A stretch of DNA of 64,000 nt from Lytechinus variegatus (taxonomy: Eukaryota > Echinodermata > Echinoidea > Temnopleuroida > Toxopneustidae), in the NCBI RefSeq assembly GCF_018143015.1, contig NC_054747.1:38231233-38295232 (forward strand), read 5' to 3'. Shown here in pieces: positions 37,315 through 64,000 of the stretch. The position numbers were made by a program, and so were the translations under genes. The notes beneath the pieces are model-generated. The model did no database searches. It was not told the origin of the DNA and saw nothing but the letters and a program-made list of their open reading frames with translations. The first letter of the stretch is position 1; each line of letters opens with the position of its first letter.

Positions 37315-37562
37315 CTAAATTATGGAGTACGTCCTAGCTCCGTGTCTTGGTTCAAAGTGAGAAACGTCCGCAGTGAGTAATGGCCGGCCAATAGAGCACG
37401 CCCTCTCGTGTGCAATGAACGTAAAGTACGCACAATCTTTGTCACCCACACACAACTTCGCACACCTACTTACTGAGCGCACCGAGTAGGATGATATAAT
37501 GGCTTCATCGTCAATTGTTGCATCGTCAGCTACAAGTTTGAAGGAGGTGGATAGCGTATGGG
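37315..37562 (-). CDS. Gene A terminal exon: PAN/Apple-like domain
   Basis: Acceptor TCCTCACACAG|CC; 248 bases, ending TAG at 37315-37317. No Met opens the frame, so simple open-frame scans starting at Met miss it. It encodes STSFKLVADDATIDDEAIIS, then SYSVRSVSRCAKLCVGDKDC, AYFTFIAHERACSIG, and ends HGARTYSII. The spacing RCxxxC..C.YFTF....AC matches the exons at 45866 and 57834, and the first of these has exactly the same length. The domain label PAN/Apple rests on the Cys spacing and is moderate. Confidence 0.78.
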
Positions 37563-40500
37563 CTGTGTGAGGAAAATATTAAAGTTTAATCATTATTCAT
37601 AATGAGTTTGAAGTAGGCCTACATTCATGGAATATTTTATTAAAAGAATTTCAGTATAACTGAATATCAATAATATTTGTATGTTACCTGTACAATGACA
37701 AAAAATGTATATTTGATATCTAATTTGTCTTTTCTATCTGTCTTTATAAACTGGTATATACACAAGTGCTGCTATGTCTAATCAGGTAATTAGCTTGTTA
37801 ATTTGTTTGATTTATATTGTGATTTATATTTTGATCAATAAAGATTGAAAAAAAAGCAATGCGTGTTCAATAGCTCAGCAAATATACAGAAAAAATGCCC
37901 TTCAAATGATCAAGAACACCTGGAGAGCGTTTCATCAATATTTTCATCCGACAAGTTGTCAGATCTGACATCTTTCCTTGATTCTGATTGGCTGAGAGGC
38001 ACTGTTCCTATGGTAACTGTCGGATAAACTGGTACTTGTCGGATAAAATTTCAGACAAGTCCTTTCATGAAACGCCCCCTGGAAGGTCATTGTCGAAAAG
38101 TGTTGAACCGGAAGCAGTTCGTCCTACATAAGTTTCAAAGCTAACGAAAAATTGCATTTTTTTATGTTGGTCGTTCCGAGTCTAACTGTCCAAGACGGAA
38201 CTGGTGTTTTGATTCACAAATTTTCGAAAATGACTTCATGGATGGTCATTGTCATGAAGGGCGTTTGACAATACATTTTTTATGTTCTTGAAAGCGTTTT
38301 GTCTCCCTCCTTAATACCTTGCCCATCGAACACCTTTTCACAAATGTAGCGATGCGTTAAACCACAGGTACTTTCGTGCCAGTCAAACGCTGGATGACTT
38401 AACCGGAAGCACGAACCACCACTGTCGAACGTGCTCTGAAGTTCATGGAACTTGTTGTAGGTGATTTGTGACCTGTCTAGCCAGCCCACCCTGGCCAATC
38501 CTATCCAATAGTCAGTGTTGTCTTCACGATTCGAGATCAAGAACTGCTCCTCATCCTCGGATTCGATGTACACGAGATGCATTCCAAGGCCTTCACATCT
38601 TGATTTTGAAGCGTTGAAGTCATCAGCGAGCGGAGAGAAGTAATAACAGGACTGGTCATGCATGTACATGTAATCTGGCAACTCCCCCATGAGTGGTGAC
38701 CAATCTGAAGTGGGAAGAAAAAGCATAAAAAGTCAGAATGCCGTTGGCTCAATCCCTGTAACGGATTCATTTCGCTTGAACCAATCCGTTACAAATGTTG
38801 GGCTTTTCGGAGTGTCGCCTCAATTTCAAACAATGAGGAGGCGCGATAGCTCAGTCGGTAGAGCGGGGATTCGTATTCCGTTGACCCGGGTTCGATTCCC
38901 ACTTGGTGCGCTAGTGCCCTTTGGTAAGGCATTAATCATCAGTACTAGGTCCTTCGGAGGGGACCTTAAGCCGTCGGTGTTCTGGTTGCTTGTTTACAAG
39001 CATTCATGCTTTTTTAGCAATCAGGTAAAAAAAATCACAAATCACCAATCATCAACAATAAAAAGTTAATAATGCAAATTAAATTCATTACAACATCGAA
39101 TTTTGAACCCACACCTTATTCCGGCCGTAACATCGAATGAATGACTTTTGCCACTGTGACCATAGTAAGTATTTGTGACTCACAGATACTTTCTATTGAC
39201 AGTCAGGGGCGGGTGGATCCAGGATATTTCGAAGGGGGGCTATTTTCCGAAGGAAAAATTTTACAAGCAAAAAAGGTTTCAACAAACAATTGGATTTCGT
39301 CCACGAAAAAAAAAAATTGACAAGCAAAAAAAAGGTCTTCACTTTCGAAGGGGGGGGGGGGGGGGTGGCAAACTGCTGTTTTAATAGCATTTTTACATTA
39401 CAAATTTTTATTGCGACTCACACAGGGGGGGGGGGTAGGGTACGGGCCTGTTGTGCACCCCCCCCCTGGATCCGCCAGTGGTCACAGTAGCATTATTGGT
39501 ATTCTTTTTCTACTGATTTTTGTATCCAAGACAGAATAATAAATCTATTTTTTTCTCGAACTTGTTAAATTGGTGATATTTATATCGAGATTTGTAAGAG
39601 CAATTAATGAGCAGCATTGATTATTCATGGCATTTTGAACATGTTGAAAAGGAGATCAACTGCACCTCAATGCAACTTTCCTTGATTACTCCATACAATC
39701 CCTCTTGCAACCTTAGGTCTTCTAGTTCATTCTTACTCGCTGTACCACAATCTCATAATTCATGGGGGGGGGGGGTCGATCATTTCAACATGCTGGGCCT
39801 TTCTAATGGAATAAACTGCCAATAGAAATCCGCAATATTTCGTCTCACCACTTTCAAAAGTTCTCTTAAAACCTGGTTATTCACGCAAGCTTTTAGGTAA
39901 TTGTTATTCTCCTCTTTTTAGTAGGTTTTCTTCCTTCCTTCCTTCCTTTCTTTTTCCTTTCCTTTTCTTTTATTTATTGCGCCATGAGCATTTTTTTATG
40001 ATCGATACCGGCGCATTACAAATGTTAATATTATTATTATTATTATCATATGGAACCCCGTATATATTTTTTTTCCAAGGAAGGATTCTTTTCTTCATAC
40101 AAAAGACATGTTATCTACCTCAAGAATCAAGCAAGCGAAAGCATTTCGAAGGGGTATCCCTCTTTAAACATGCTAAAGAAAGAAAGAAAGAAAGGAAAAA
40201 TAACAGGGTGTTCTTCCTACCAATCTAATGTGGCACGTGGAGCTAAAACCGAACCCAGATTGTACCATTACGATAGACGAGAGTATGTTTTTCTGGATAC
40301 TAGTATCAAAACATCTCTCTTTCAACATATACTTTAGCTCAGGGATTCTCAAATGGTGGCACGCGCGCCACTTGCGGCGCACCGAGCCTTCCGGAGTGGC
40401 GTGTGGGAACCGGTATAGAAAAAGAAACAAGTGGAATGCCTCTGGCCGTCCCACCTGCATCACGCGATTCAACATAGCAGCAGTGCTGACTTTGAAACCT

Positions 40501-42479
40501 ACTATAACTCGCACAAGATGTTCAGTGATACTTGGTTACTCTTATTTCCACGTTTTATGAACTTGACCAATACACTTACAGAGATAGGATGGTAATTCAA
40601 CAAATACCCCCAATGTGGCCAAAATTCATTGACCTCACATGACGTTTGACCTTGATCATGTGACCTGAAACTTGCACAGGATATTCAGTGATACTTGATT
40701 ACTCTTATGTCCAAGTTTCATGAATCAGATCCAAATACTTTTAAAGTTTTTATTGTAATCCATCAGAAACCCCCAAATCGGCCAAGGTTCATTGACCCTA
40801 AATGACCTTTGACCTTGATCATGTGACGTGAAACTCATGCAGGATGTTTGGCGATACTTGATTAGGCTTATGTCCAAGTTTAATGAACTAGGTCCATATA
40901 TTTTCTAAGCTATGATGACATTTCAAAAACTTAACCTCAGGTTAAGATTTTGATGTCGATTCCCCCAACATGGTCTAAGTTCATTGACCCTAAATGACCT
41001 TTGAAACATAATAATTAGCACTAATTTGAGCACGTAACTTATCATTAAAAAAAAATGAATTGTGTAGTATGTTGGTATTTTTATATCTTCTGTTGATTGA
41101 GAACCCCTCTCGGCCATTTAAAAGGCTTTCTGCTCTTCAGGTGGTCCTGCACCCCCCCCCATACCACAATGTTTCGCTCTTCACGTGTTGGATAGTGGAG
41201 CAGTCCAGATTCTCAACAAGAAATTTGGCGCTTTAACAAAATTAATTGAGAATGGCTGCTTTAGCTATTGCTTAAAAAAGACAACGGAAACAGTGTAAAC
41301 GACATTTGCATTGCTTACCACATTCCACTTCACAGATAAATTTGAATTGATCGGAACAAGTATCATCATGCCAATTATTCTTGTTGGCTCTTAGCCTGAA
41401 GCACCTTCCGCCGTCATCAAGAGCCTTGTTGATTGCTGGAAAGTTAATATACGACAGACGAGAACCATTTAACCATGAGAACCCTGATAGACCTATCCAG
41501 TAATCTTCGGTACTTCTCTTCGTGATCTCTTTGACAAGAAACGCCTGCTCGTCAGAAGATTGGATGGAAACCAAGTGCATTCCATGATCTTTACAAAATA
41601 GATTCGATGTCTTAAAATTTGATTGGATGTTTGAGAAGAAGTAGCAAGACCCGTTGTGCACGATGTACCCATTTCCACTACATTCGGCATCTGATCAAAA
41701 ATAAAATCACACATAAAGATTTGTATGGTATGGGGAGCCGAAACACTGAGCAGGATATCTATAATGTCTCATGTACATGGATTTCCGAATAACGTGGAGC
41801 GTTGTGACCCAGTGGATTAGTCTTCGGACTTTCAAACAGAGGGTCGTGGGTTCGAATCCCAGCCATGGCGTAATTTCCTTCGGCAAGAAATTTATCCACA
41901 TTGGGCTGCACTCGACCCAAGTGAGGTGAATGGGTACCCGGTAGGATTTATTCCTTGAATGCTTTAGCGCCTATATGGCCGCTCAGCTACAGCCGGGGTA
42001 ATAATAATATGCCAAGTATATTTCAGCGCCTTGAGCACATAATCAATGTGGATTTGGCGCTTTAGAAATACTCTATATTATTATTATCATAACAGTGACT
42101 ACAGTATACTGCTTTATTACTGTTTCCTTTTTCTTTTCTTATAGTAATAGAATATAAGGCAATCTTATTGTTTATAATAACACCGACGAAATAACAGCAT
42201 ATCAATAAGAGCAGTACCAGCATATCAGTAATAGCAGAAGCATTTTTAGTGTTTGTGGTATAATGAAGATCATTAGAAGTGTACAAGCAGAAGTGGAAAT
42301 AGAAATGGTAAAATTAGACTACTACTTAAACAACAACTACTACAACAACAACAACAACTACTACTACTACTACTACTCCTACAACTAGTAGTGGAATTAC
42401 CTTGTGCATTTACTTGCTGATAAAAAGATGAGAAATGTTGGGTGATAAGAACCGTGAAAATACAAAATATAACATCCAT
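37315..42479 (-). CDS. Gene A: secreted two-CTLD protein with PAN/Apple-like C-terminus
   Basis: Predicted minus-strand CDS: 42479-42401 (signal peptide), 41690-41319 (CTLD 1), 38704-38318 (CTLD 2), 37562-37315 (PAN-like, stop TAG). The sum is 1086 bases, 361 residues plus stop, all joins in phase 1. The ATG follows its acceptor directly, so at least one 5' UTR exon lies upstream. The signal peptide starts MDVIFCIFTVLI. Each CTLD shows the family landmarks GMHLV, WIGL and a terminal ICE. PAN/Apple domains usually mediate protein or carbohydrate contacts. The product is expected to be secreted, possibly for microbe recognition or surface binding; that role is inference. Extra small exons cannot be excluded. 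Confidence 0.75.
37922..38090. mobile_element. MITE family 2 (copy 2, opposite orientation)
   Basis: It begins GGAGAGCGTTTCATCAATATTTTCATCCGACAAG and ends TCCTTTCATGAAACGCCCCCT. This is the reverse complement of 2064-2221 with small differences. It sits in the last intron of gene A, between CTLD 2 and the PAN exon. Confidence 0.8.
38318..38704 (-). CDS. Gene A exon: CTLD 2
   Basis: Acceptor CCCACTTCAG|AT and donor GGGCAAG|GTATTA; 387 bases. Landmarks: QSCYYFS, GMHLVYIESE, DYWIGLAR, SCFRLS, WHESTC, RYICEK. The first hairpin cysteine is missing and the N-terminus is about 10 residues longer than in the sister domains. The donor is weaker than in the other exons. Confidence 0.86.
38836..39063 (+). 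mobile_element. tRNA-derived SINE, family 4
   Basis: The head GGCGCGATAGCTCAGTCGGTAGAGCGGGGATTCGTATTCCGTTGACCCGGGTTCGATTCCC shows clear A and B boxes. The body (TTGGTAAGGCATTAATCATCAG..GGGGACCTTAAGCCGTCGG) and the AATAAAAAG-type tail show it is a retroposon. It lies in gene A between the CTLD exons, antisense to the gene. Confidence 0.75.
39202..39482. mobile_element. Foldback element with GGCGGATCC ends and G/C runs
   Basis: The ends GTCAGGGGCGGGTGGATCCAGG and CCTGGATCCGCCAGTGGTCAC are inverted repeats. The interior has AAAATTTTACAAGCAAAAAAGG and long G runs. The elements at 45041-45225 and 58881-58984 are built similarly. Confidence 0.65.
40338..41110. mobile_element. Possible hAT-type element carrying an ancient dispersed tandem repeat
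   Basis: The left edge CTCAGGGATTCTCAAATGGTGGCACGC and the right edge TTGATTGAGAACCCCTC resemble hAT ends. Between them are three tandem units of about 164 bases starting near 40511, 40674 and 40839, with words GTTCAGTGATACTTGATTACTC, TATGTCCAAGTTTCATGAA and TGACCTTTGACCTTGATCATGTGACC. The tandem repeat is certain; the hAT link is tentative. Confidence 0.55.
41319..41690 (-). CDS. Gene A exon: CTLD 1
   Basis: Acceptor TTTTTGATCAG|AT and donor AATGTG|GTAAGC; 372 bases. It carries all six long-form CTLD cysteines (AEC/GSC hairpin, LFC, RCF, DTC, ICE), plus GMHLVSI, DYWIGLSG, and WHDDTC in place of the WND calcium motif. There is no EPN or QPD, so classic Ca-dependent sugar binding is not supported. 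Confidence 0.88.
41794..42090 (+). mobile_element. tRNA-derived SINE, family 1 (copy in gene A intron 1)
   Basis: GTGGAGCGTTGTGACCCAGTGG, GGTTCGAATCCCAGCC, then CTGCACTCGACCCAAGTGAGGTGAATGGGTACCCGG, ending in ATT repeats. It is antisense to gene A. Confidence 0.85.
42401..42479 (-). CDS. Gene A exon: signal peptide
   Basis: Acceptor CATTTTCAG lies immediately before the ATG. The exon encodes MDVIFCIFTVLITQHFSSFY, then QQVNAQ, and donor AAG|GTAATT follows, phase 1. The layout is the same as the gene B signal exon (55188-55260). Confidence 0.7.
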
Positions 42480-44160: not shown

Positions 44161-44162
44161 CA

Positions 44163-44692
44163 TATTCCGCATACATTCGTAATTCCGAAGCTCGTTATTC
44201 CGAAGGTTCGGATATTCCGAAGGTTCGCTATTCCGAAGGTTCGTATTTCCGAAGGTTCGTAATTCCGAAAGATCGTAAGTCAAAAAACGAAATGAGGTTC
44301 GTAATTCCGAAGGTTCGTTAGTCCGAAAACAAAGTGAGGTTCCTAATTCCGATGGTTCGTTAATCCGAAAACGAAATGAGGTTCGTAATTCCGAAGGTTC
44401 GTTAGTCCGAAATTGTAATGATTAACTAACCTTATTGCGTTTTCGGACTAACGAGCCTTCTGAACAACGAACCTTATTTCGTTTTCGGATTAACGAACCT
44501 TTGGAACATCGATCCTTATTTCGTTTTAAGATTATCGAACCTTCGGAATAACGCCACAAATATTCGGATTAACGAACCCTTTTACGTTTTCGGATTAACG
44601 AACATGGAGGTATAGGCACTTTACGTGTTTCGGTATTACGATTCTTCGTAATAAAGAATCTTCGGAATTACGAACCTTCGGAATGACGAAGT
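44163..44692. repeat. Foldback array of TTCGTAATTCCGAAGG words
   Basis: About 16-28-base units (GGTTCGTAATTCCGAA, AAACGAAATGA) are repeated on the left, and their complements (CGAACCTTCGGAATAACG, CGTTTTCGGATTAACGAAC) on the right of a centre near 44425. The result is a large imperfect hairpin made of short repeats, typical of a foldback transposon with repetitive arms. Confidence 0.8.
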
Positions 44693-45865: not shown

Positions 45866-46113
45866 CTACACTTTCGAATATGTTCGAGCCCCTTGCATCG
45901 GCTCATAGTTCACTTCGTCACCAGTCTCGCAAGCAACAGCAAGTAAGCACGCCCTCTCTTGTTCGATGAAGGTGAAGCAGGAACAACACTCTTCAGCAAG
46001 GCATTGTCTAGCGCATCGACTGACTGATGATACACGGTGTGAAGCAAGCACATGACGTTCCTTGAGAATAGAGTCATCAGCAACAAGTTTGATGGACATT
46101 GATCTACCGTGGC
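45866..46113 (-). CDS. Gene B terminal exon: PAN/Apple-like domain
   Basis: Acceptor CTTGTTCAG|GC; 248 bases to TAG. It encodes [20 protein letters not shown], then [36 protein letters not shown], and ends GARTYSKV. It has the same start (IKLVADD) and end (GARTYS) as the gene A exon, with two more cysteines. The frame is also open upstream of the acceptor, but that part (MPSLEFCNN..) is intron. Confidence 0.8.
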
Positions 46114-49100
46114 CTGAACAAGCAAGATGCATAATGAAGGCGTTAATGATGTTAGGACAATACGTGAGGAAGAGAAGCATATAGCATAAGGCATGTTGAG
46201 TGCATACACGAATATAAGGGACATTCTTACATCTCACATTATTACAAAATTCTAAAGATGGCACCGGGCTGCCATGTTCTCACATTAACTTCATCTAAAG
46301 AGCGTTGTGGCTCAATTGATTGGTTTTATGACTTTGAAACAGAGGATTGTGGGTTCGAATACCAGCCATGGCGTAATTACTTGAGTCGGCAAGAAATTCA
46401 TTAACATTGTCCTGCACTCGACCCAGGTGAGGTAAATTGGTACCTGGTAGTAATTTATTGCTTGATTGCCTCCGTGCTATTAAATAAACCAGGATAGTAA
46501 TATCCAAGTCTTTTAGGAAGCGCATAGGGACGTTCTGACATAGTGTGATATGCGCTGCAGAATTATTATACAAAATTAATAACGCACGTAAGCGAGTGCA
46601 TGCAGGGCCAAATAATGTTCGATGTGCAAGAAGAGCCAAAAGATATGCCACACCGAGGTCCGCGTGAGGTGTTTCCAATTGGCGAGTCGTGCACAGTGTC
46701 ATTATTTAGGTCGTCTATGCACAAGAATGCGTGCATTGATTGTTTAATTCAACCTCCCCTCCCCCGGATGCTATATTTCTAGAAATCTAAATTCTAGATA
46801 ATTCTAGATAATTTCAGACCTCGCACGATCCTGCACTCTGACATCAGAGTGCTGAATAGTGCATTTGGTATGACGTCAGAGTGCAGGATAGTACATCTGG
46901 TATGACGTCAGAGTGCGAGATAATGCATTTTGGCTGCCATAGTGCACTTCGCTGAATATCACGTGATCCGATTTGGACCGATCAGATTACAGAACATTCT
47001 CTGGAGTTGTATAATAGGGTGATCATTTACTACAGGTCTTCGGGGATGGGGTGGGTCATCCAAAACTAATGACATCCAATGTGTAATTGGTAATTTGAAA
47101 GTAACTATTGGACTATGGCCATTTACCTTTGCTGGATGGCGAATCAGAAGTCTGTACTGGCCCTCCGTCAGTGGAGGTTTCCCCTGCTCATTAGAATGAA
47201 AATAAGCTTCAAATAGGCGGTGTTTCTCAAATGATTCATACATTTGGTACCATGGAATTGAATCCAAATAACTTCTATCAAGGAGCTTCAAACAGAAGGA
47301 GATACATCTGTTTGAAGCTCCTTGCTTTTATGAAAGGATACGTGTACACCGATATATTCGGAAAATAAGATGAAATCGCCCTGACCTTTGGCGTAATAAC
47401 CAAAGAGTCACGAGAGGCGAAGACGTAATTTTGAGATATGTATTATATAGGATATAATTCCACCTCTCACCCTTTTCCATTTCCTTTTCTCTCATTTCTC
47501 TTGGTCGTTGAACTTTTCTTCGTAAGGGAGTCGCCATTGGTCTTCGACATTAGATGTGCAAAGGGTTTCTCCAAAATGTTTGGACAAGGTCATAATTCTT
47601 TATTCGTATATTCAACCTCACTTCATTTTAAGTACTTTACAATCTAAATACATCGCAACAAAGCTTTCTTTTTTTCACGTACTACCAGCTGATAACTCTC
47701 ACTTTTTTTAAATTGATATCTTTTTAAGATACATCCCTTTAAAGTTCTTGGTTTATATCCACTTCGTTTAACACTTACTAGTCTGTAGAATTCGAGTAAT
47801 TGTTATTGAAACAAATTTCAGTTGACAAAGTAAGAAGCTATTATAAATGCGATGCCTAGATTAAGTGAAATTTCCACTAATATGCATAAGTGAAATGAAA
47901 ATTATACTAAGTGGTACATATTAAACCAAGTGTAGATCAAGCGGTACTTAGAGCAAATTGACAATGGGTTTAGTCAATACGGAATTCGACAATCTAAAGA
48001 ATAAGACCAAATGACCAACTGCTTGTCGATCAAGCCTACATGAAACAGCGAGAACACTGGGTGCTTTTCCCTTATAATACATACGGCTTACCGATTTCTT
48101 TTTCACAAACGTAATGGCTGCTAGCCGAACAGCTCTCGTCGTACCACGGCAGATCGATTGGATGCATAAAGAAGCAGCGACCTTCGTCGTCAAAAGCAGA
48201 AACGTTATATGGAAAGTTATTATAGACAAGAGATGTGCCATCAAGCCAGGATATGCCACGCAAACCAATCCAATAGTCTTCGTTATCATCAAGATGAGTG
48301 ACCAGGAAGTCTTGCTCTTCCTGTGATCCAATCGACACCAGATTCATCTCATGGGACTTACAGAAATCGTCAGCGTAGAAGAAGTTCCTCACATAGTAAG
48401 AGAAGAAGTAACAGGAACCACTTTGCTCTACTTCATTCATCAAGGTTCCACTACAAGCTGCAAAAATAAAAAGAGATTCATTTTTTAACAAATAAAAATA
48501 AATAAAATACAAATGAGAAAAAAAGAATTCCAAAACACACGTCATATTGATTAGCGTCAGTCGGCAGCTTCACCACCACCGACCATTGAACATTGTGTTA
48601 TCATACATTATGTTAGTATACACACTGCCCCCACAGTGTGTTAACCGTCACGACAGTGTGTCCACAATGTTGTTGAACTATGTCAATATGCGAATCAAAC
48701 TGTATAAATGCTCAAATTTATTAGTGTGGACATTATTCCAGACTGTGGACATGGCGGAAGTGATAGTGTTCAGATAGCGGAATTTGGGAAAATGTGGTTC
48801 ACACTGTTATTGTCATTGTAATACGTTGAAGCATTATCCAGTGGCGTTGCATAGCGTCTACTAATGGTGTCAGATTCCTCGTGAAAACAGACAATATTGC
48901 GCCTTTGAAATGCTCAAATTAATTGTGTACATGCGATTTCACAAAGTGATCAACACTGTGAGCACACTCTGAATGACACCCTGTGAACATACTGTGAATG
49001 CACTATAGGGAAACACTGTGAACACACGACGAATTCACTGGTGACACACCACGAACACACCGTGGATACACTGAACACATTGCGAACACACTGTAAACAC

Positions 49101-52100
49101 ACGTCTAGGGAAACACTGTGAAAACACGACGAATTCACTGGTGACACACCACGAACACACCGTGGATACACTGAACACAATGTGAACACACTCTTAATAC
49201 ACCGTGAACACACTGTCAACATTCACACTGTGGATAAAACTGAAAATACACTGCGGATACACTGAACACACTCTGGGAACACACTGCTAACATGAACACT
49301 GTGGATACAACACACTGTGAACACATTGTTCAACATTGTGACCACACTTTGAACACACTTTTGTAGCACACTGTGTGAGACAATCTGTTTTCCCAGTATT
49401 AGTCTAGTTTTATAGTACTCACGTAAGTCCCTCTCACAAATGAAACGGAAATCGTCATTCCACGTGTCATGCCATTCTCGAGAACCCTTTACCAGACGAA
49501 ATTTATCCCCGTCATTATTGAAGCAGGAAATGTATGGCCCGCCAAAGTTGTTGTACGTCAGACCAGACCCATCCAACCAGGTTACACTAGATAATCCTAT
49601 CCAATACCCTTCCCCGTCGTTTGGAAGATTCGCCTCCAGGAATTCCTGTTCCTCGTTAGACCCTATGAAGACGAGATGCCGTCCAGGAACACTTTCGCAC
49701 GACAGTTTTGCAGAGGAGAAGGTGGACTTTGTTTCGTGAAAGACGTAGCAGGAGTGTGAGAATCTCAGGTCACTTGGTCCACAGTCGGGTCCGATCTCTG
49801 TGAAAGAAGAGAGAAAGGAAGAAACTAAATAATGTTAATAAATCACTCATACATTTCAGGTTTTAGAGGACATATGAAATAATAATATAGAAAATGTACT
49901 TGAAAGTGGTAACTTTAACACTTAACTTTTCACCCGATAAATGAAGATGCAAAGTTATGCAAAGGCATTTTTCTTTTCACAGAGCCTTTAAAAAATACAA
50001 TGTCATAGAAATTACTGTTTAAATGCGGCCATATGTAATTAGATAAAAGATCAAATGAATGTTGTATTAATGTCGTCTTTCTCATCTTTATCACATTTCG
50101 ATTTTTCTTTCGAATCACATCAGATCACCCACCTTCATGTTTCTCGCAAATAAAATAGTGCATGTTGGAACAGTCGGTGTCCTCCCATCCGAAACTCCAT
50201 TCCACTTGGAAGCACTGCCCTCCATGTGTAAACTCAGTATACTCATAATGGATATTGGTGAAGGTGGCTGTTGAGCCATTCAACCAGGTTATTGGTGAGA
50301 TGCCAATCCAGTAGTCGTTGTAGTAGTAGAGGTTCGATCGCAAGAAATTTTGTTCCTCTCGCGACTCGATGAAGACAAGATGCATTCCCAGGTCCTCACA
50401 TTGAGTCATCGAGGCACTAAAACTGGTCTCGATTGAAGAGAAGTGGTAGCAGGAGCCTGCGTTTTCCCGATGCGGTATGTCCGGATCACAGGCTGAATGT
50501 TGGTTTGTTTTTAATTGTATGTTTTGCGGCGGAGGGGGAGGGGGGGGGCAAACAGACGTGCAGGCAGACACAATTATGGAGAAACAGAGAGAGAAAAAAT
50601 CAAGGAAAAGATATTGTTAAGTTGAAAATCCACAATGAAAATGGTAATCCTAGATAACATAAACTCCTTAACATCCATGCAAACCCAAGTTGGAATTCGT
50701 TTTTCAATTCCTTCACATTAAATTCTTAAAGGTTTTTCAAAAAAATATGATAATTATGAATGCTACATCATGGGTGATTTCAACTTAGATATGTTAAAAG
50801 TCTCACAAAATATTAAAATCGATGCTTTTTTCGATTTGATGCTAAGTTATTCTTTTCAGCCACTTATTGGTGCACCAACTCGTATTACAGCTTCATCTGC
50901 CACTTTGTTGGATGATATTTTTGTTAACTCAGATTTATTTATCAATGCTGGTATTCTCATATCTGATATAAGCGACCATTTACCTGTTTTTGCAATTACT
51001 GGTTCGCTAACAAGTGTGCCACATGAATCTATTTATACTGTACGCTGTATCAATGATGACACAATATATTTTATAGTGAAGTTCAAAATCTGTCATTTAG
51101 TTTAACTAATGATGAAAATAATTCGTACAATTCATTTCTCACGGTTTTTACCAATTTATATAATAAATGCTTTATAAAAAAAGAACGTCAACAGAAAAAG
51201 ATATGTAATAAGAGTATGGATGACGCACGGTTTAAAAAACATGAAAAAGCTCTGCAAGAAAAAATCAGAACTTTAAAAAAAGTTTTTACAATATCCTACG
51301 CAGTATCGTGAGAAAGCATATAAAAGATTCAGAAATTATGTAACCTTAATGCTTAGACAAGAGTAATTTTTATTTCAAGAAATTCATGGATTTCAAAGAC
51401 AATATAAGAAAGACTTGGCAATGTATTGATACAATATTGGGGAAAAAACAAAAGCTCATCTTCAAGTATTAATTCTATAAAACCGAATAGTGAAAATGTA
51501 ACTAATAAAAAAAACAATTGCAAATGCCTTAAATGATTTTTTTTGCTACAATTGGTACTAAATTGTCTTATCAACACATTGATAATTCTTATACTAATTT
51601 TGCTTCTTATCTAGATGACCCCAATTTGTAATCGTTATATCTCAAACCAATAAAACCAAGTGAAATAATTGATATAGTTTTAAAAATGAAAAGCAATACA
51701 AGTTCTGGTCATGATTCTATAGGTATCAAAGTTGTCAAGAAAATAATTCGTTTACCAGTCATTCGTGAAAATCTTCGTCATATTTTTAACTGTAGTATAT
51801 CTACTGGCAAATATCATGACTTAATGAAAATAGCCAGAGTAACCCCAATTTACAAAAAAGGTGATACGAGTGTACTTAATAACTATAGACCAATCTCTGT
51901 ACTCTCAATATATGCTAAAATACTCGAAAGATGTATGTAAATAAAGTTGTTTCTTTTTGTGATAAACTCCAAATTCTTTTCTGTACTCAGTTTGGTTTTA
52001 GATGTGGGCACTCCACATCTTCTGCAATATTGGAATTGATTCATAAAATTACGCAAGCAATAGAAAGGAAAGAATATACATTAACAGTTTGTATTGATTT

Positions 52101-55100
52101 GTCAAAAGCTTTTGACATTATAGATCACTCAATTTCATTTCATAAATTGCATTACTATGGGATGAGAGGTATTGTTTTAAACTGGTTCCGAAGTTATTTG
52201 AATGAACGACAACAGTATACAGTTATAGATGGTATGGAATCAAAATAAAATACAGTAAGATGTGGAGTGCCCCAGGGCTCTATACTTGGTCCCCTTCTGT
52301 TTTTGATTTACATAAACGACTTGCCAAAATGTTCAACCTTATCAAATTACATATTATTTGCAGACGACACCAGTATTTTTCTTTCCAATCCTGATCCAAC
52401 TCAACTTATCAATACCATGAACACCCAATTAATAAAATTACATCAATGGATGTGTGCCAATAAGCTGATTTTAAATGTAGATAAAACTAACTATGTAATA
52501 TTTGGTACACGTAAAATTAGTAATAACATCCCAAATATTTATTATAATCATCGTATTATTAATAGAGCGTCAAGTACTAAGTTCTTAGGTGTTATTATTG
52601 ATGATAAGTTGTCTTGGAATAATCATATAAGTCATCTATGTGGTACCATATCTAGAAATATCGGAATTCTTAGAAAATTGTCATTTTGCCCAGCAATATG
52701 ATCAAATTATTGTATCATTCTTTAATATCTTCTCATTTAAGTTATTGTTCCACAGTGTGGGGCTTCTCATCAAAATATAATCTTAATCGTATATTTCGTC
52801 TACAGAAAAGGGCACTAAGAGTTATAACTCATTCTCATCATTTACATCCTTCTTCCCCTCCATTTTCCAAAATGAATATTCTTTCAAACCATAGTATTAT
52901 TTCTGTACAAACTGGTTCTTTCATGAATAACTGTTATCATGGTAGTATACCACCGTCACTTTTAAATTTTTTATATTGAATCGATCCATTCATTCCCATA
53001 ATACATGAAATAGATGCAAATTTCATCCTCCTCTGTGTCGAACTGAGCTAGCAAAATCAACATTTTGTTATCAGGGCCCTATACTGTGGAACAATCTACC
53101 TGTTAAACTTCAGACAGCAAAGACATGTAAACTTTTCAACTTTAATTACAAACGACACTTACTTTACACTGAGCAACCCCTTTCTCTTGACAAATAATCA
53201 TAGCCTCTCTGTTCTTCCCTCCTTCTTTCCTGTCCTGTCTTATGCCATATGGATTTATTTTTATGATTATGTATGTATTATGTATTGTGTATTACGTACT
53301 ATGTGCACTTATGAATGTTATATTGGGCCATCCAAACAAGCCTGATGAGCTTTCATTTGGTCCACCACTATTTTAAAATGTATTTGTATATTGCTTTGTA
53401 TATATTTTAATTTTGTGGAAATAAATGAAATGAAAATGAAATGGCGTATATACACCTCTTCTCCATTATCTTATCGCTAATGTGGGCCTAAAAGTAATCA
53501 TAAACTTCATTCTTTAGTTCCGATTTGCCTCGAAAACTTCAAATGAAAATAAAAGGGAAACCAGTCATGATGCAGGTCTGTATTTCTTTTTATGTTATAC
53601 TGCCAAAACCGATTACTTACCGCCCTGTTTTTCACAGATGAATCTATACGGGAAAGAACAACTTCTATCATACCAACTACCATCAGAATATTTCATCCTG
53701 AAGCAATGTCCACCATCATCGAATGCCCCACGTCCGTAGTCACTATAGCTTAGACCTGACCCGTCCAGCCAGACCAAACCGGACAACCCTATCCAGGATG
53801 TATGACCCCGTTGCATGGTGTTCACCAGGAATTCTTGTTCCGATCTGGAGTCTATGTAGACCAGGTGCATCCCAAGACCCTCACAGGATGTCCTAGATGT
53901 CGAGAAATTGGTTTTGCCTTGAGCGAAGTAATAGCAAGATCCTTCGAATTCAGTGAGATGTGATTCACATGCTGGCAACAAACGTATATGTAAAGAAAGC
54001 TTGTGTAAATCTATAGCCTCGTCCAGGCGCGTGGGATCCTTTTCAGAGTTAAATTATATTTTACGTGGAGCCTCGTCGACCTGGCGCTGCACAGTAGCTG
54101 CCGGGCCCACAAACAATTGGGGACAATGAATTTTCGGAATATTCAGATTTCTATTTTGAACATTAAAATATTAATTGATTAATTTGATTTTTTAAATTCC
54201 AACGATAATTCTCTTATCTCTTATCGCGACCAAGACAAAGGCTCTTTTGGTTGGAGGAGACCTAATCGGCAGAAAGGTCGGATCAGTGCCCGTCCGGATA
54301 GAGGTCGACCTTTCCCGACCAAGGTACTCCTACTGATTTCCAGGAGTATCTTTCGGGGAAAGGTGGGAGTGTCTCTACCTACGATCAACTAGCCTTTGTG
54401 TTGATCATAATAAGAGAGAATATCTTCTTTTTCAATCCATGCATACTACATGTATAATTTTGCTCCGACCAAGATCCCCACTGTCTGTACCAGGTTGTGA
54501 ATATTTAGGGAAATAAATGGTTTTGAAAGGGGAATGAAACCTTTGGAACAAGTAGCTTGTGTCAAAAGAGAAAAATAAAAAAAATAAGAACAATCAATTT
54601 TGAGAGAAATCTGACAAATAATGAGATAGCTATGAGCATTTGAATATTGCAATCACTAATACTATAGAGATAATCCTATTGGCAATGCGACAATGATGTG
54701 TGATGTCACATATGTGAACAACTTTATCTATGATGGACTGTAAAATACCACCAAAATGTCTCTTTTTGCGTTTTCTTACTGTGATGCAAACTCTTTATCC
54801 ATGATGTATTCTTTGAAAATCTGCATTACATGCCCTCCTATACAAAGAACACAATATGATCTACTGATAGTTGTGATAGAAGAGGCAGTTTAACTGAAAT
54901 ATATATACTACATCTAAAGTAATCATGGTAATGGGGAGAGTTGTTCATAAGTGACATCACACATCTTTATCGCAATGTCAATGGGAGGATCTCCATAGCA
55001 TAAGTGATCGCAATTTTCAAATGCTCATAACTTTCTCATTATTTGTCTGATTTTTCTCAAACTTTCGTTGATCTGTTTCTTTGATTTTCTGTTTTCACAC

Positions 55101-55260
55101 AAGCTATCTTATTTCAAAGGGTTCATTCTCCCTTAATTTATTTCCGTAATGAGCAAAAGCAAAAGTACAATGAGATGCAGTGCCTACCTTCTTGCTGAAG
55201 AGTACATGTTATGTGTTGGTTGAAAACCACCACGAAAAGAATCAACGACGTCAGCTCCAT
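45866..55260 (-). CDS. Gene B: secreted four-CTLD protein with PAN/Apple-like C-terminus
   Basis: Predicted minus-strand CDS: 55260-55188 (signal peptide), CTLD exons 53971-53621 (a), 50492-50133 (b), 49797-49423 (c), 48457-48092 (d), and 46113-45866 (PAN-like, stop TAG). The sum is 1773 bases, 590 residues plus stop, every join in phase 1. The CTLD c domain lacks the inner disulfide pair. Introns hold a LINE on the opposite strand (between a and b), a minisatellite (between c and d), a SINE (before the PAN exon) and long inverted repeats (intron 1). A likely 5' UTR exon ends at 56008 with donor ATA|GTAAGT. The product is expected to be a secreted modular lectin-like protein; ligand unknown. 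Small stalk exons, such as the one in gene C, could be missed here. Separate smaller genes are possible but less likely, because only one signal exon and one terminal exon are seen. Confidence 0.72.
46301..46570 (+). mobile_element. tRNA-derived SINE, family 1 (gene B last intron)
   Basis: AGCGTTGTGGCTCAATTGATTGG, GGGTTCGAATACCAGCCATGGCG, then CTGCACTCGACCCAGGTGAGG; diverged tail. It lies just upstream (in gene sense) of the PAN-like exon. Confidence 0.8.
46837..46935. repeat. 32-bp tandem repeat carrying CRE-like sites
   Basis: Three units start at 46839, 46871 and 46903. The core is TGACGTCAGAGTGC (TGACATCA in the first) followed by ..ATAGTGCATTTGGTA. Full cAMP-response-element palindromes TGACGTCA lie at 46871 and 46903. 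It lies in the last intron of gene B. Confidence 0.8.
47281..47322. repeat. Perfect 15-bp-stem hairpin
   Basis: AGGAGCTTCAAACAG and CTGTTTGAAGCTCCT enclose 12 bases. It may be the terminal repeat of a small transposon or a head-to-head junction. Confidence 0.7.
48092..48457 (-). CDS. Gene B exon: CTLD d
   Basis: Acceptor TTTATTTTTGCAG|CT and donor AAATCG|GTAAGC; 366 bases. Six cysteines (ACSG, GSC, DFC, RCF, ESC, VCE). [36 protein letters not shown]. The end VCEKEIG matches gene C CTLD d (ICEKEIG). Confidence 0.9.
48945..49382. repeat. Minisatellite of GAACACACTGTG words with 100-bp higher-order unit
   Basis: Short (about 10-12 base) units such as GTGAACACACT fill the interval. A longer block starting TAGGGAAACACTGTGAA and running to CGTGGATACACTGAACACA occurs twice, at about 49006 and 49106. 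It lies in gene B between CTLD exons c and d, and ends about 40 bases from the donor of exon c. Confidence 0.88.
49423..49797 (-). CDS. Gene B exon: CTLD c (inner disulfide lost)
   Basis: Acceptor TTCTTTCACAG|AG and donor CTTAC|GTGAGT; 375 bases. It keeps the hairpin cysteines (DCG, HSC) and the outer pair (LSC, ICE). Where sister domains have the CF cysteine it has Lys (GDKFRL), and where they have WxDxxC it has Trp (WHDTW). An extra Cys sits in [25 protein letters not shown] is conserved with gene C CTLD c. No ATG opens this exon; its frame is continuous from acceptor to donor. Confidence 0.87.
50133..50492 (-). CDS. Gene B exon: CTLD b
   Basis: Acceptor CCAACATTCAG|CC and donor GAAG|GTGGGT; 360 bases. 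Six cysteines (ACDP, GSC, TQC, QCF, TDC, ICE). [16 protein letters not shown]. The segment [19 protein letters not shown] is nearly identical in gene C CTLD b (62965-63321), showing direct kinship. Confidence 0.9.
50725..53440 (+). pseudogene. 5'-truncated, mutated non-LTR retrotransposon (CR1/Jockey-like LINE)
   Basis: Fragments in order on +: the end of an apurinic-type endonuclease ([10 protein letters not shown], then [13 protein letters not shown], 50770-51045); a broken linker (about 51060-51680); reverse transcriptase from [14 protein letters not shown] and [19 protein letters not shown] through [34 protein letters not shown], and [11 protein letters not shown], the catalytic FADD box at about 52350-52370. 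It continues through [14 protein letters not shown] to the thumb region near 52980. Frameshifts or stops lie near 51075-51110, 51630, 51940, 52247 and 52695. The 3' end is an AAATGAAATGAAAATGAAATGG tail. It lies in the intron between CTLD a and b of gene B, on the opposite strand. Confidence 0.88.
53621..53971 (-). CDS. Gene B exon: CTLD a
   Basis: Acceptor TGTTGCCAG|CA and donor AGGGCG|GTAAGT; 351 bases. It carries all six long-form cysteines (ACES, GSC, TSC, HCF, RSC, ICE). Motifs [23 protein letters not shown]. No EPN/QPD. Confidence 0.9.
54510..55148. mobile_element. Long inverted-repeat (foldback) element in gene B intron 1
   Basis: The left arm, about 54510-54725 (GGGGAATGAAACCTTTGGAAC..AGCTTGTGTC..CTGACAAATAATGAGATAGC..ATGTGTGATGTCACATATGTG), is mirrored by the right arm, about 54940-55148 (CATAAGTGACATCACACATC..ACTTTCTCATTATTTGTCTG..ACACAAGCTATC..GGGTTCATTCTCCC). 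Arms are about 200 bases and the loop about 215 bases. Transcribed RNA would form a long hairpin. Confidence 0.8.
55188..55260 (-). CDS. Gene B exon: signal peptide
   Basis: Acceptor TTTTATTTACAG abuts the ATG. The exon encodes [20 protein letters not shown], then LQQE, with donor GAAG|GTAGGC in phase 1. Joined to CTLD a it reads LQQE-ACESHL. A foldback MITE ends only 17 bases upstream of the ATG (55277-55558), so it probably contributes to the branch-point region. Confidence 0.72.
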
Positions 55261-55276
55261 CTGTAAATAAAATATT

Positions 55277-56007: not shown

Positions 56008-56120
56008 TATGAGATCAAACTGGATGAGCTTCTTCCTCTCATGAAAAATACTCCTTCTGCATTCTAGAAACTCGTCACCATTTGGTAAAGGTGTGATGAG
56101 AAGAATGCTGATGTATCTCT
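56008..56120 (-). other. Candidate 5' UTR exon/promoter region of gene B
   Basis: Donor CTCATA|GTAAGTTTTTC on the minus strand ends a possible untranslated exon at 56008. It would splice to the acceptor at 55260/55261. The exon start is arbitrary; no TATA box is evident, and short upstream ATGs are present. Confidence 0.3.
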
Positions 56121-57833: not shown

Positions 57834-58087
57834 TCAGGGCTGTAGTTGGGAATATGTTATAGCCCCTTGTTGTGTGTAAAAGTTCAGGTCGTCTTCGACC
57901 TCGCAAATTTCTCCAAGTAAGCACGCCATCTCGTGCTCGATGAACGAAAAACATGAGCACGTTTCTACGTCAAGACATAAGTTGGCGCATCTAGTAACGG
58001 AATGAACGCTATGAGATGCAATCACGTGACTTCCGGTGAGCGACAAGTTGACGGCGAGAAGTTTGATGAATGACGATCTACTGCGAG
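57834..58087 (-). CDS. Gene C terminal exon: PAN/Apple-like domain
   Basis: Acceptor GCATTCAACAG|CT; 254 bases to TGA. It encodes ARSRSSFIKLLAVNLSLTGS, then HVIASHSVHSVTRCANLCLD, ETCSCFSFIEHEMACLLGEIC, and QQGAITYSQLQP. Six cysteines, as in gene B. Confidence 0.8.
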
Positions 58088-61000
58088 CTGTTGAATGCAA
58101 ATGTTAAAACAAACCGTAAAAACAAAGTCAATGATATTTGAGATAAGCCGACTAACTATTACCCTGATGAGTGGCAATCTCGGTGATAGACCAGTTCGTA
58201 ATTACTTCATGGGCAATTTTGGTCAAATGACCTTTCATTTCTTTCATCATGATATGCAGATTTCAAAACAAGATATTACGTAAGCTTGCCTTACATAGCA
58301 GGAAGAAGGAATTGAATAGACCAGGTGACTAGAATAGCACACCAATGAACACTTAATGAAGGTATTTGTTGCATTCCTACTTTGAATGCATATCTTCGCA
58401 TGTTGCACAATGACAAACTGTGAAATACCAGTCGTTCGTGGAAGCATTGTTGTTTTTTGTGGATGTAAATGAAAACGACAATTCAAAAGAATATATGAAT
58501 AATCAAGACATCAAAGTTGGTGCTTATCTCATTAGATTTTAAAGCACCATGTCACTTTAGTACAGATGACCTTCTTCTGATCATGCGTAGAATCTTTTGA
58601 TCATGCGCAGAAAGGAACTACAAACTGGCTTATTGGTGCAATCGAGTGTTATGAAATACTTTGTGTCTCTCTTTAATTGTCACATTAACAGATTTTAAAT
58701 TTATTAATTTCATTAATTTTTAATTTGCTAATTTTCGTCAAATATTCACCAATACGTTGTTCTATTTTTCCATAACTTAATATTATTATTTGTCGTTGTT
58801 GTTGCTTGCTGTGCAGTACTCGTTTGAACGACCCCAACACGTACGTACCATGCATTTCCACAATATGTTCTTCTGAACTGCATAGGTGGCGGAGCAGAGG
58901 TTTATCTTTTGTGTTTGGGGGGGGGGCGCAACAATAGCCGTCCCCCCAAACACAAAAGATAATCCTCTGCTCCGCCGCCAATGCTGAACTGTCATTCTGT
59001 ACTTTTCGCATTTCCTAGAAGGAAACTCGCTACAATTACCAATTCGTTTGAAAATGCAAGTCAAACAACAAGGAGAGCTGAAAGGTTTTTGTCGAAAGTT
59101 GATGGACAGGGACAGAAATCTCTTGACTCTGGACATCAACGTTCATGTAATTTGCAATAGTTCTTCCACGGTAAATCTTCGGATGATTTGCTGGCCCAGT
59201 CCACAAACTTTCGACGAAAGCCTCCCAGCTCTCCATTGTGACTTTAATTGCATTTCAAAGGGATCGATGCGTTGTAGAGAGTTATCACATAGTAAAAGCG
59301 AAAACTCCTTATCGTGAGGTTCAACACAACTCTATAAAACAGACCCTACCTCTAATATCAACTCATTTGATTGTAGCCCAGGTGGAATGTTATGATTAAT
59401 GATAGTGTTTCACATTCAATTGCAAACCACGTGACAACACATAACCGGGATATAGTTATAATATAACATTTGTCGGAAGTGCATAGCATACCTTGATGGG
59501 ATGAAGGCTGTACGGTCGAAGTTGGTTCTTGGTTATCTGTCAAACATAAATTGAAATAGATATTTGATTGAGAACAGCTTTATTGCTTTGATGACTGCCT
59601 TTTAATAGCTAAAAACTCAACTTTATGACTGATATCATTTTTATAACTTGCAAAGTATTGCGAAACCGCCAGACTGCACGGACCCCCTGGTGCCATATGC
59701 CCCCCAAAAAATTGTCTAAACGGATTTAATCAATCGCAAATCCTAAATGTGGCCTTCTGATGGGTTGAAAATTAAGTTGCGATTTACTTTTTATACATAG
59801 TTTGATTACATTTTTTATGCAACCGGACTTAAATGAAACAGGTGACGCAGGTCTAGTTATCGAATTATGGGTAGATGTGCACATATGGTTAAATATTTTC
59901 AGAATTTCGTTTCGACATTAAAGGTATTTAAGTTCAAAGTAATTTTAAACTCAAAACCATTGTCATGCTTATATTCATTAGTTCCAAAATATGATATAAT
60001 CAGAATGTAATTGGAATATCATTTTATGCTTATTTGTGATATCTGGCGACTATATCATTAAGTTGATTCCATTTTAAAAGTTAAGTGGTAGGCAAGCATA
60101 AGTTGTCTCGTAAAGGATTTCTCAAAACAGATCAAGGAATTACCAGAAATAGCAGGCCCACATTTCCAACACAAAATCTTGACTTGTCAAGACCCCCAGG
60201 AAATGCCCTTACTTCATTGGAATCTCTTTTTTGAAAGAGGTTTCATAGGAGTCCCCCCCCCCCCTTGATCAACTGCACCATTATGAAAAATACGAGACAT
60301 TTGACTTCCTCCTGCTCGTACGCACGGGCGTCCGTCGATATAACACATAATATTTTTATGAAAATATGCACCTTTTTTCTTAAAAGTTGATGGAGAGGGG
60401 GAAAAATTAATTGTATTATGTCGGGGTATTCAGTAATGAGTACAAGAGAAACTATATTTTACTGATTTTCATGATTCATCCCATTTGATTAACTCATCTA
60501 TTCGTGTTTTGGGGCTAATCTTTCCCTTACGCATTGCTTTTTGGCAGAAGTTCTAAGGAAAATGGACCCGGTTTTTTCACACAAACTTTGAGACACTCTG
60601 TATTCATTCCCCCATTGCTCGAGAATGAATGGGCAGTTAACGACGGGGTTAAAGATTTATTGAAGAATGGAATGTATATTTCATGAATGAAAGCCATTTC
60701 CCCATTGGATGTTATCTTCAATACGTGTTTTTTAGATGAAGTCAGTTATCGAATAGGCTCTCCTGGCATTTGAGGTCCCTATCGGTGACGTCACTCAGGA
60801 TCGTCATGCCTGGACCATCGGCCAGGCAGGGGTCGCAATGGTATATGATTTATTAATGCACTCGATATATACAATAATCTTGTCCTCCGGTTCAAATGAA
60901 TGTGAAACTCATATAATTTCCATCAGAGCATTCAACAGGAGTACTGTAGTACACATTTCTTTGTTATAAGTGAATTAATGTCCCTCCAGTGAGTTTGCCT

Positions 61001-63321
61001 CACCCCTATTGTGAAAATGTATCACCCCTAAGTTGTAACACAGTCAGCTGTTTGCACTCAGGGTCACTCCGTGACCTGTGTGTGCGTTCAAGAGCTGTAC
61101 ACTATTTTCTGTCTCTTTTAGGCAGAAATCTTTCATAATGTTGATCCACAATTGTCATTCTTCCTACTCACCGATTTCTTTCTCACAAATGTAATGATAG
61201 CTATCGGAACAGTTCTGATCGTACCACACCAGGTCTGATGGGTACATCCTGAAGCATATTCCCTCGTCATCAAAGGCAAAATCATGATATGGGATATTGT
61301 TGTAAACGAGATGTGAGCCATCAAGCCAAACCATACTTGACAGACCGATCCAGTACTCTTCGGTGTCCACCAAGTGACTAACAAGGAAGTCCTGCTCTTC
61401 TTGAGATCCAACGTAAACCAGGTGCATCCCGAATCCTTCACAGGTAGATCTTGATTCAGGGAACCTGGAGTTCACCGCTGAGAAGTGGTAGCACGAATCG
61501 TTGTGTCCGATGTCATCACCAACACAGACAGCTTCGGGAGAATATTGGGAGAGTTTCATTGTCGTTAGAACTAACTGAATAATCAAGCTATGGAAATCGT
61601 CGTATTCAAAGATACTCTGCTTTGATGCTAACTATACGAATCGGGTTGGCTTTATTGAGCAAACTTTGTGCAAATTTTGCATGATGGAAAAAAAGAAATA
61701 CTAAAAGATGACGATTTTGTTCTTCGTGCTTTAACAAAAAAAAATGGATAAAGGAACGAATCGCCGTTTAACCAGCCAAAACAAAGACATATATTTCGAT
61801 GACCTATAGAGAAGATCGATTGACCACGTGGTATTATCATTCATGCAATTGCTAAAGTAATCAAATACAACTTACAGATTATAAGAGAACTCACAATCGA
61901 AAATGCTAATTTGGATCAATATCGAATTATATAAATGCCTTTAGTACCGACCATGTTTGCCTTTGTGACATAGGGCCATACAAAGGCAATTTAGTGGACA
62001 CCCACATCTCTGATGAAGCACATAGAAAAGATGGTATTAAGAGTAAAGTGGTACTAGCGTAAACACCCCCAACAAATAAATGGTTAGAAATTTGATTATT
62101 ATCATACTCACCCCCTTCGTTTTCACAAATGAAGCGGAAATTCCCATTGTAACTCGCATCGTACCATGCTCGAGAGCCCTTTGAAATTCGGAAAGCAATC
62201 CCTTCATTATTAAACGTCGAAACATAAGGTCCTCCGAAATTGTTGTAGGTGAGACTACTACCATCAAGCCAGGTCACACTGGATAACCCAATCCAGTATC
62301 CTTCCGCCATGTGCGGTAGCTCCCTCTCAAGGAAGTCTTGTTCTTCCTGCGAGCCGATATAGACGAGATGCCAACCGTGAACTGATTCGCATGTTGATTT
62401 TGCAGAGGAAAAGTTGGACTTGGTCTGGACGAAGTGGTAGCAGGATCCGCCGAATGAGAGGTTATCTGACAAACAAACTACAGAAATTCGATAACAATAA
62501 TTATCATTGCCAGCAACGTATTTTTACAGCACTTATAGAAGCCTTACCTTTGACTGTCCACTTCTCTCGTGCCAACCCCTAAATGCGTTGCATGCAGGGA
62601 TATATAAAAACTTGAAATTCCGTAACAAATGAATTCTATCCTCTTTTTTGAATGATTGTCGTTGAGATGATCGGTTACACTTAAAAAAATAGAGTGCTAA
62701 GTTCTACTCTTTCCGAACTCGTTTAGTGATTGCAATAGTCTTCGAACATGCCGGGTGCTTATCAAGAGCATCACGCAGGTGAGTCGATCCATGTTTTAGA
62801 TTGGGGAGGGGGTTATAAAGGTAATATGACTAATTTGTAACTATGAAAGAGTTTAGTCTGTATCATTTGTTTCACAGAACCTGAAAACTCCTTGAAATTT
62901 ATATCTCGTTACTTTTGACAAAGTTTTCACTAGATCTTGACAAATGTTTACTAAATCAACCTACCACCTTCATTCTCGCAGATGTAATAATGCATGTCGG
63001 AACAGCTAATGTCTTCCCAGCCAAAACTCCAGGCCGCTTGGAAACAGCTTCCCCCATCGTCGAACTCATAGTCCTGATATGGGATGTTGTTGTATACAGG
63101 GCTTGATCCATCCTGCCATGTCATGTGTGAGAGGCCTATCCAGTAGTGGCCGTCATTTTGGAGGTTAAGGGATAAGAAGTCGTGTTCTTGCTCCGACTCG
63201 ACGTAAACCAGATGCATCCCCCGACCCTGACATAGTGACAGTGCGGTGCTGAAGTTGGTGGCGCTGTGAGAGAAGTGATAACAAGAACCACCGTACTCCG
63301 TGTCGTTCTGATCTGCACAGG
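57834..63321 (-). CDS. Gene C (5' end outside window): multi-CTLD protein with stalk and PAN/Apple-like C-terminus
   Basis: Predicted minus-strand exons inside the window: 63321-62965 (CTLD b), 62465-62112 (CTLD c), 61531-61172 (CTLD d), 59536-59492 (Ser/Thr/Pro stalk), 58087-57834 (PAN-like, stop TGA). All internal exons are multiples of three in phase 1-1. By analogy with gene B, a CTLD a exon and a signal-peptide exon should lie to the right of the window, unless the b-type fragments at 63400-63960 mark a rearrangement. Domain order and sequence mirror gene B exactly, apart from the stalk. Likely secreted; ligand unknown. Confidence 0.72.
58881..58984. mobile_element. Short foldback element (GGCGGAGCAGAGGTTTATCTTTTGTGTTTGGGG)
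   Basis: Arms: 58886-58927 (GGTGGCGGAGCAGAGG..TTATCTTTTGTGTTTGGGGGG) and 58943-58982 (CCCCCCAAACACAAAAGATAATCCTCTGCTCCGCCGCC). The loop is about 15 bases. It lies in gene C, in the intron between the stalk and the PAN exon. Confidence 0.85.
59068..59245. repeat. Imperfect inverted repeat in gene C
   Basis: CAAGGAGAGCTGAAAGGTTTTTGTCGAAAGTTGATGGACAG is mirrored by CCAGTCCACAAACTTTCGACGAAAGCCTCCCAGCTCTCCATTG, with a loop of about 85 bases. It lies in the intron between the stalk and the PAN exon and keeps both strands partly open by chance. Confidence 0.7.
59492..59536 (-). CDS. Gene C exon: 15-residue Ser/Thr/Pro stalk
   Basis: Acceptor ATGTTTGACAG|AT and donor CATCAAG|GTATGC; 45 bases, phase 1-1. 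It encodes DNQEPTSTVQPSSHQ, which looks like an O-glycosylated linker between the CTLD array and the PAN-like end. Small size makes the call moderate. Confidence 0.55.
59537..61171. other. Gene C intron between CTLD d and stalk
   Basis: About 1.6 kb with no exon I can support; a C run is at 60255-60264. Another short stalk exon could hide here. Confidence 0.4.
61172..61531 (-). CDS. Gene C exon: CTLD d
   Basis: Acceptor TTCTCCCGAAG|CT and donor AAATCG|GTGAGT; 360 bases. Six cysteines (VCVG, DSC, TCEG, ICF, NCS, ICE). [44 protein letters not shown]. The open frame upstream of 61531 is intron. Confidence 0.9.
62112..62465 (-). CDS. Gene C exon: CTLD c (inner disulfide lost)
   Basis: Acceptor TAGTTTGTCAG|AT and donor GAAGGGG|GTGAGT; 354 bases. 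Only three cysteines remain (GSC, TCES, ICE). The inner pair is replaced by Ala (EGIAFRIS) and Tyr (WYDASY), and the first hairpin cysteine is missing. [14 protein letters not shown] and [20 protein letters not shown] are intact, so the fold is probably kept. Confidence 0.9.
62965..63321 (-). CDS. Gene C exon: CTLD b
   Basis: Acceptor TTCCCCCTGTAG|CC and donor GAAGGTG|GTAGGT; 357 bases. Six cysteines (ACAD, GSC, SLC, SCF, ISC, ICE). GMHLVYVES, HYWIGLSHMTW, AWSFGWEDISCSDMHYYICE. The frame is continuous from acceptor to donor; the only internal Met is well inside. Confidence 0.9.
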
Positions 63322-63960: not shown

Positions 63961-64000
63961 GAAAGCCGCGAGAGAATAACTAAGAATTACAGAAAATGTA

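Follow-up and report, generated by a model that had tools for sequence, protein, structure and literature searches.

The minus strand of the window, the whole 64,000-nucleotide stretch of Lytechinus variegatus DNA analysed here (C8:38231233-38295232, where C8 is NC_054747.1), carries a CTLD/PAN cluster of twelve domain exons, nine for CTLDs and three terminal ones for PAN, that are predicted to be spliced in phase 1 into three tandem genes, A, B and C. Very probably these genes encode secreted proteins composed of a signal peptide, two, four and four CTLDs respectively, a linker in one of them and a C-terminal PAN domain, belong to a family distributed over several chromosomes and include one pair (B and C) produced by whole-gene duplication; how the proteins would most likely bind is proposed at the end of this report. 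The signal, n x CTLD, PAN architecture had been suggested by a first-pass annotation of the same DNA and is supported by Pfam matches, conserved splice sites, selection on codons and recurrence at other loci. Genome-wide searches covered the 870 Mb assembly (33 contigs).

Gene models and splice sites

Gene A begins with a 79-nt signal-peptide exon (42401..42479; this and all following exons are on the minus strand unless stated) which encodes a hydrophobic start, ends in phase 1 and has an AG before the ATG and a GT donor both here and in copy B, a second copy of the locus described below. It is followed by the exons for CTLD 1 (372 nt, 41319..41690; Lectin_C 61.9 bits; splice sites kept in copy B) and CTLD 2 (387 nt, 38318..38704; 46.5 bits), the latter without the N-terminal cysteine, and by a terminal PAN exon containing the stop codon (37315..37562; PAN_1 28.9 bits). 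Gene B consists of a 73-nt signal-peptide exon (55188..55260), assigned from hydropathy and comparison with copy B, the exons for CTLD 1 (351 nt, 53621..53971; 60.1 bits), CTLD 2 (360 nt, or 366 nt in copy B, 50133..50492; 58.0 bits), CTLD 3 (375 nt, 49423..49797; 36.0 bits) and CTLD 4 (366 nt, 48092..48457; 56.5 bits), and a terminal PAN exon with stop (45866..46113; PAN_1 28.4 bits). A LINE-like reverse transcriptase relic lies on the plus strand within the intron between CTLD 1 and CTLD 2 of this gene (window 50722-52979; RVT_1 51 bits at 52249-52701), and the corresponding stretch of copy B does not align to it.

Gene C extends past the end of the window into a stretch that is N in the window's own copy, and its remaining CTLD and a probable signal exon (copy B 57495-57426) were supplied by copy B. 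The two and four CTLDs annotated earlier for genes A and B stand, and the third gene, previously given at least three, has four in copy B, according to which its CTLDs are numbered. Present in the window are CTLD 2 (357 nt, 62965..63321; 55.1 bits), CTLD 3 (366 nt, 62112..62477; 48.5 bits), CTLD 4 (360 nt, 61172..61531; 57.9 bits), a probable S/T/P-rich linker exon of 45 nt (59492..59536) and the terminal PAN exon with stop (57834..58087; PAN_1 25.9 bits), with an AATAAA 44 nt past the stop in both copies. The earlier description of the 45-nt exon as a stalk exon fits, as its phase-1 AG and GT are kept in both copies and one of its 45 bases differs between them. The spliced models of genes A and B encode 361 and 590 amino acids, each without an inner stop and with a single terminal stop, and that of gene C, built from copy B, encodes 600 amino acids without an inner stop.

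Every CTLD is complete within one exon in the nine window exons. The exon starts proposed in the first-pass annotation are preceded by AG, the exons end at GT and all are in phase 1, although the polypyrimidine tract before gene B CTLD 2 is weak and the acceptor there scored under the splice-site filter. Across the three window genes the ten internal exons have phase 1 at both ends, placing them in symmetric class 1-1. Between copies, all 15 acceptor AGs and all 12 donor GTs compared are kept. That all internal exon lengths are multiples of three was also correct, but when every junction is in phase 1 this follows automatically, so that a single fact had been counted twice. One of the lengths required correction, the CTLD exon given as 354 nt being one of 366 nt (gene C CTLD 3, 62477-62112): the shorter start at 62465 was rejected because the AG is absent there in copy B, while at 62477 an AG is present in copy B and the N-terminal cysteine is retained.

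A different reading of these exons, with the PAN exons lying in small genes of their own beside single-CTLD lectins, finds some encouragement in an upstream ATG within the PAN open frame of gene B, but is highly improbable given that the PAN frames of genes A and C start at phase-1 acceptors and lack an ATG ahead of the domain, that the CTLD exons end at phase-1 donors, and that the same order and strand are repeated at other loci.

The CTLD and PAN domains

When the exon translations were compared with Pfam, all nine CTLD exons scored above the Lectin_C cut-off of 22.6 bits and all three PAN exons above the PAN_1 cut-off of 21.4 bits, confirming the twelve domain exons on one strand. In an alignment of 14 CTLDs, every member matched Lectin_C at E <= 0.1 and the CTLD core, including WIGL and the cysteines, was conserved, identifying these domains as members of the CTLD superfamily. 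Classical C-type lectins that bind sugar through Ca2+ have a long loop with an EPN or QPD motif, together with WND at a second site. No EPN/QPD-like motif was present in any of the 14 aligned CTLDs and none had WND at its site, where all 14 read W-x-D or WHE; the one WND string, found in CTLD 3 of gene B, is off-site. The domains are thus not classical Ca2+-dependent sugar-binding lectins by these motifs, and ligands of other kinds are possible. CTLD 3 has lost its long-loop cysteine pair in both gene B and gene C.

For the terminal exons, all seven aligned PAN sequences matched PAN_1 at E <= 0.1 and four cysteines were invariant in all seven. The PAN_1 scores together with the two-disulfide core indicated by the cysteines, for which the disulfide pairing is predicted, assign these exons to PAN/Apple. 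Apple domains of the subtype in which a third disulfide joins the N and C ends have an additional cysteine at each end; these were absent, the four core cysteines alone being invariant (n=7). A profile of the PAN sequences matched MIC4, SML-2 and factor XI in the PDB (E 3.6e-7 to 0.01), with weak matches to plasminogen, kallikrein and HGF (E 0.08-0.9). The predicted PAN fold was of moderate confidence (pLDDT 68.7) and a Foldseek search with this model returned many apple/PAN chains among the first 50 matches, none of those 50 being at E <= 0.001. The ranking was headed by fungal copper oxidase chains, which the PAN profile also matched weakly. A genome-wide search with Pfam PAN_1 gave 56 rows at E <= 0.001; these include two of the three copy-B partners of the window PAN exons, but no window PAN exon itself. 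Chance similarity was rejected on the PAN_1 scores, the PDB profile matches, the Foldseek result and the alignment members, and on this evidence exons previously termed PAN-like can be called PAN.

A second copy of the locus

A collinear copy of the region, copy B, was found 2.25 Mb away on the same contig (C8:40.5 Mb), with approximately 100 kb aligned. The copies are 99.6% identical at one end and about 79-95% identical in the cluster blocks; another point, 340 kb further to the left, is paired at 96%. Considered as regions, C8 37.90-38.34 Mb and 40.18-40.58 Mb are paired stretches in the same order, on the basis of the approximately 100 kb aligned and the one further point. The start of an exon on the minus strand at window 13704-14117 also has two copies in the genome, at 100%; we take this exon to be homeobox-like from its motif, and it had no Pfam match.

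Copy B is probably the other haplotype, left unmerged in the assembly. If it were instead a true segmental duplication there would be six genes per haploid genome, and the placement of the copy on the same contig, 2.25 Mb off, is what such an event would give. A test piece at 38.70 Mb also speaks for a duplication: its repeats were matched, and none of the 40 candidates scored, out of 2659, was a second copy of its non-repeat part. A further test piece, used for the extent of copy B, matched repeats. Against a segmental duplication stands the collinearity, both over the aligned portion and at the paired point further left. Bindin is a single-copy gene, and here it is likewise found twice on one contig, which again makes a duplication unlikely. 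Both bindin parts occur twice on C13, at 18.60 and 24.95 Mb, 6.3 Mb apart (Pfam bindin 232 bits), a pair that fits the same assembly artefact as the C8 copy.

No inner stop or frameshift was found between the copies in any compared exon. The dN/dS between copies was 0.50 over the nine CTLD exons (p 4.5e-5) and 0.30 over the three PAN exons (p 0.003), the synonymous excess being significant for both in Fisher tests on rounded counts. Overall, the window genes are under purifying selection. The CTLD exons were uneven in this respect, one being identical between copies and three having dN/dS above 1 (1.40, 1.10 and 2.05). Gene B CTLD 2 (50133-50492) had a dS of 0.38 between copies, compared with 0-0.14 for the remaining CTLD exons, and its copies are 72% identical over the open frame, a divergence that local exchange could give.

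Origin of the CTLD numbers

In a tree of the CTLDs, where C0 to C3 denote the four CTLDs of gene C in order, B1 paired with C0 (94/90), B2 with C1 (97/97) and B3 with C2 (100/99); the bootstrap of this tree had not fully converged. The pairing of B4 with C3 lacked resolution in the tree, and these two are mutual best matches by identity (56%); by the same measure C1 is slightly closer to C3 (52%) than to B2 (50%). Because the CTLDs pair in order between the two genes, B and C would most simply be copies of one four-CTLD gene that arose by whole-gene duplication.

The first-pass annotation had attributed the changes in CTLD number to free shuffling of the exons. Unequal exchange of single exons would be permitted by internal exons that are all of phase 1-1, and could have left the degenerate partial tandem copies upstream of one CTLD (63406..63964, minus strand), relics that comprise the acceptor of the adjacent CTLD exon and its 5' part, have a spacing of 86-190 nt and are present in copy B too. 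The divergence of gene B CTLD 2 between copies is of the type expected from local exchange, and the step from the two CTLDs of gene A to four is left over by the B/C pairing. For genes B and C themselves, the in-order pairing and the equal number of CTLDs in both go against free exchange, which is thus rejected for this pair and is on the whole a quite improbable explanation of the CTLD numbers, the whole-gene duplication of B and C being preferred. Uniform phase 1 with 1-1 symmetry is common among animal extracellular modules and, since whole genes have been copied in this cluster, need not imply recent shuffling.

Recurrence elsewhere in the genome

Querying the genome with two of the PAN proteins gave 19 family-like PAN places. 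At least 14 of the 19 have a CTLD on the same strand within 12 kb upstream, where approximately 0.1% per place would be expected under uniform placement; CTLD matches in the genome are lower bounds, 150 of 513 candidates having been scored. For the remaining five places, L029 on C14 among them, no upstream CTLD was found among the candidates scored. Among the same candidates and within 12 kb, an opposite-strand CTLD was found at none of the 19 places and a downstream CTLD at five; in four of these five, the downstream CTLDs are those of the next gene on C8. Without the six places of the two C8 clusters, at least 8 of 13 PAN places still have an upstream CTLD. The order is less strict across all 70 PAN places, which include those found by Pfam only: at least 25 have a CTLD upstream, at least 14 downstream and one on the opposite strand (12 kb). 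Viewed from the CTLDs, a PAN lies within 25 kb downstream of 45 of 63 whole-CTLD matches against 8 of 95 partial ones among the candidates scored, with the boundary between whole and partial set at 285 nt without a prior rule.

Splice signals were read at several of these loci. At L031-L034 the CTLD donors were in phase 1 in five of five cases, and phase-1 acceptors at the domain start were found by the filter in three of five. Five PAN exons were read (L029 and L031-L034): one has a clear phase-1 acceptor, two have ambiguous acceptors, for a fourth no acceptor was found, and L029 has PAN acceptors in other phases alone and no CTLD found nearby. The CTLD-PAN genes are a family on several chromosomes of this genome rather than a local oddity.

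L034 (C2:17.9-18.0 Mb) is a separate CTLD/PAN cluster. As in the window, CTLD precedes PAN on one strand and the CTLD exon is in phase 1 in the one gene read; it differs in that this CTLD keeps WND and in that the PAN was found by Pfam and not by the two family PAN queries.

Relation to known proteins

Members of the mannose receptor family have N-terminal Cys-rich and FNII domains, 8-10 CTLDs and a transmembrane tail. This family (MRC1, MRC2, LY75/DEC-205, PLA2R and FcRY) has tandem CTLDs in common with the window genes, and the best PDB profile matches of the CTLDs were to mannose-receptor-type tandem CTLDs, at up to 242 bits over 6 stretches. In contrast to the family, the window genes have 2-4 CTLDs, one exon per CTLD, a PAN end and no span-like segment, and no FNII, cysteine-rich or other Pfam domain was detected in ten other frames of 80 aa or more on the minus strand. 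The window genes thus fall outside the mannose receptor family. With the PAN/Apple proteins (factor XI, plasma kallikrein, plasminogen, HGF, MIC4 and SML-2) they share PAN_1, the four-cysteine core and a similar predicted fold; unlike those proteins they have a single C-terminal PAN joined to CTLDs and no third N-C disulfide, and neither protease nor kringle was found in the window gene models.

The functions of the expanded echinoderm CTLD repertoires are largely open. Such expansions occur in some echinoderms, according to PMC10140915, and the secreted C-type lectins of invertebrates, including the echinoderm repertoires as described there, resemble the window genes in CTLD, secretion and tandem clustering; the window genes differ in having several CTLDs per chain plus a PAN, and in lacking EPN/QPD and on-site WND. 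No animal CTLD-PAN family was found in the literature searched, which included PMC11797021, PMC10140915, PMC3269628, PMC7308585, PMC10034466 and PMC6742230, with most subscription papers outside it; a legend in the part of PMC3269628 that deals with RBL structures names a PAN module. The CTLD-PAN family appears, on a search of this limited reach, to be unnamed. The earlier remark that CTLD followed by PAN is not a standard order was fair for this literature, but the order recurs at several loci of this genome.

Possible function

Within the three models, no 19-residue segment starting past residue 25 rises above a Kyte-Doolittle value of 1.15, and a membrane receptor was rejected for want of a later membrane-span-like segment. 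The signal exons were assessed through hydropathy alone, and the copy-B gene C signal segment, at 1.07, is not above the best later segment (1.15). A signal exon followed by several CTLDs and a single PAN, with no later span-like segment, points to secreted, putatively multivalent proteins. Through its tandem CTLDs such a protein would bind surfaces or proteins multivalently, lacking a classical Ca2+/sugar site, the PAN domain would dock a partner protein or glycan, and the molecule may work in coelomic fluid or matrix as a soluble factor for recognition or bridging. Expression, multivalency, ligands and an immune role of the CTLD-PAN proteins are properties that we infer.

Sea urchin spicule matrix includes CTLD proteins, which have a single CTLD with low-complexity repeats. 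Their existence, and the suitability of domains without EPN/QPD or on-site WND for protein or mineral ligands, would allow the window proteins a skeletal or extracellular-matrix role, in spicule, test or egg matrix, rather than one in immunity. The window proteins depart from the known spicule-matrix plan in having 2-4 CTLDs and a PAN, and low-complexity repeats were not seen in the spliced models, which leaves a matrix role a tentative suggestion. Of comparable standing, and equally speculative, is the idea that the soluble CTLD(1-4)-PAN family on several chromosomes forms a polymorphic system of humoral recognition, with diversifying non-classical CTLDs that are coupled to a shared partner by a slower-evolving PAN; the diversification of CTLDs is suggested because three CTLD exons have dN/dS above 1 and one differs strongly between copies, as given above.

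The genes of the cluster may serve recognition or defence. Faster CTLDs against a slower PAN hint at the role of each part, and the recurrent CTLD-then-PAN plan defines one testable subfamily sharing its C-terminal part.
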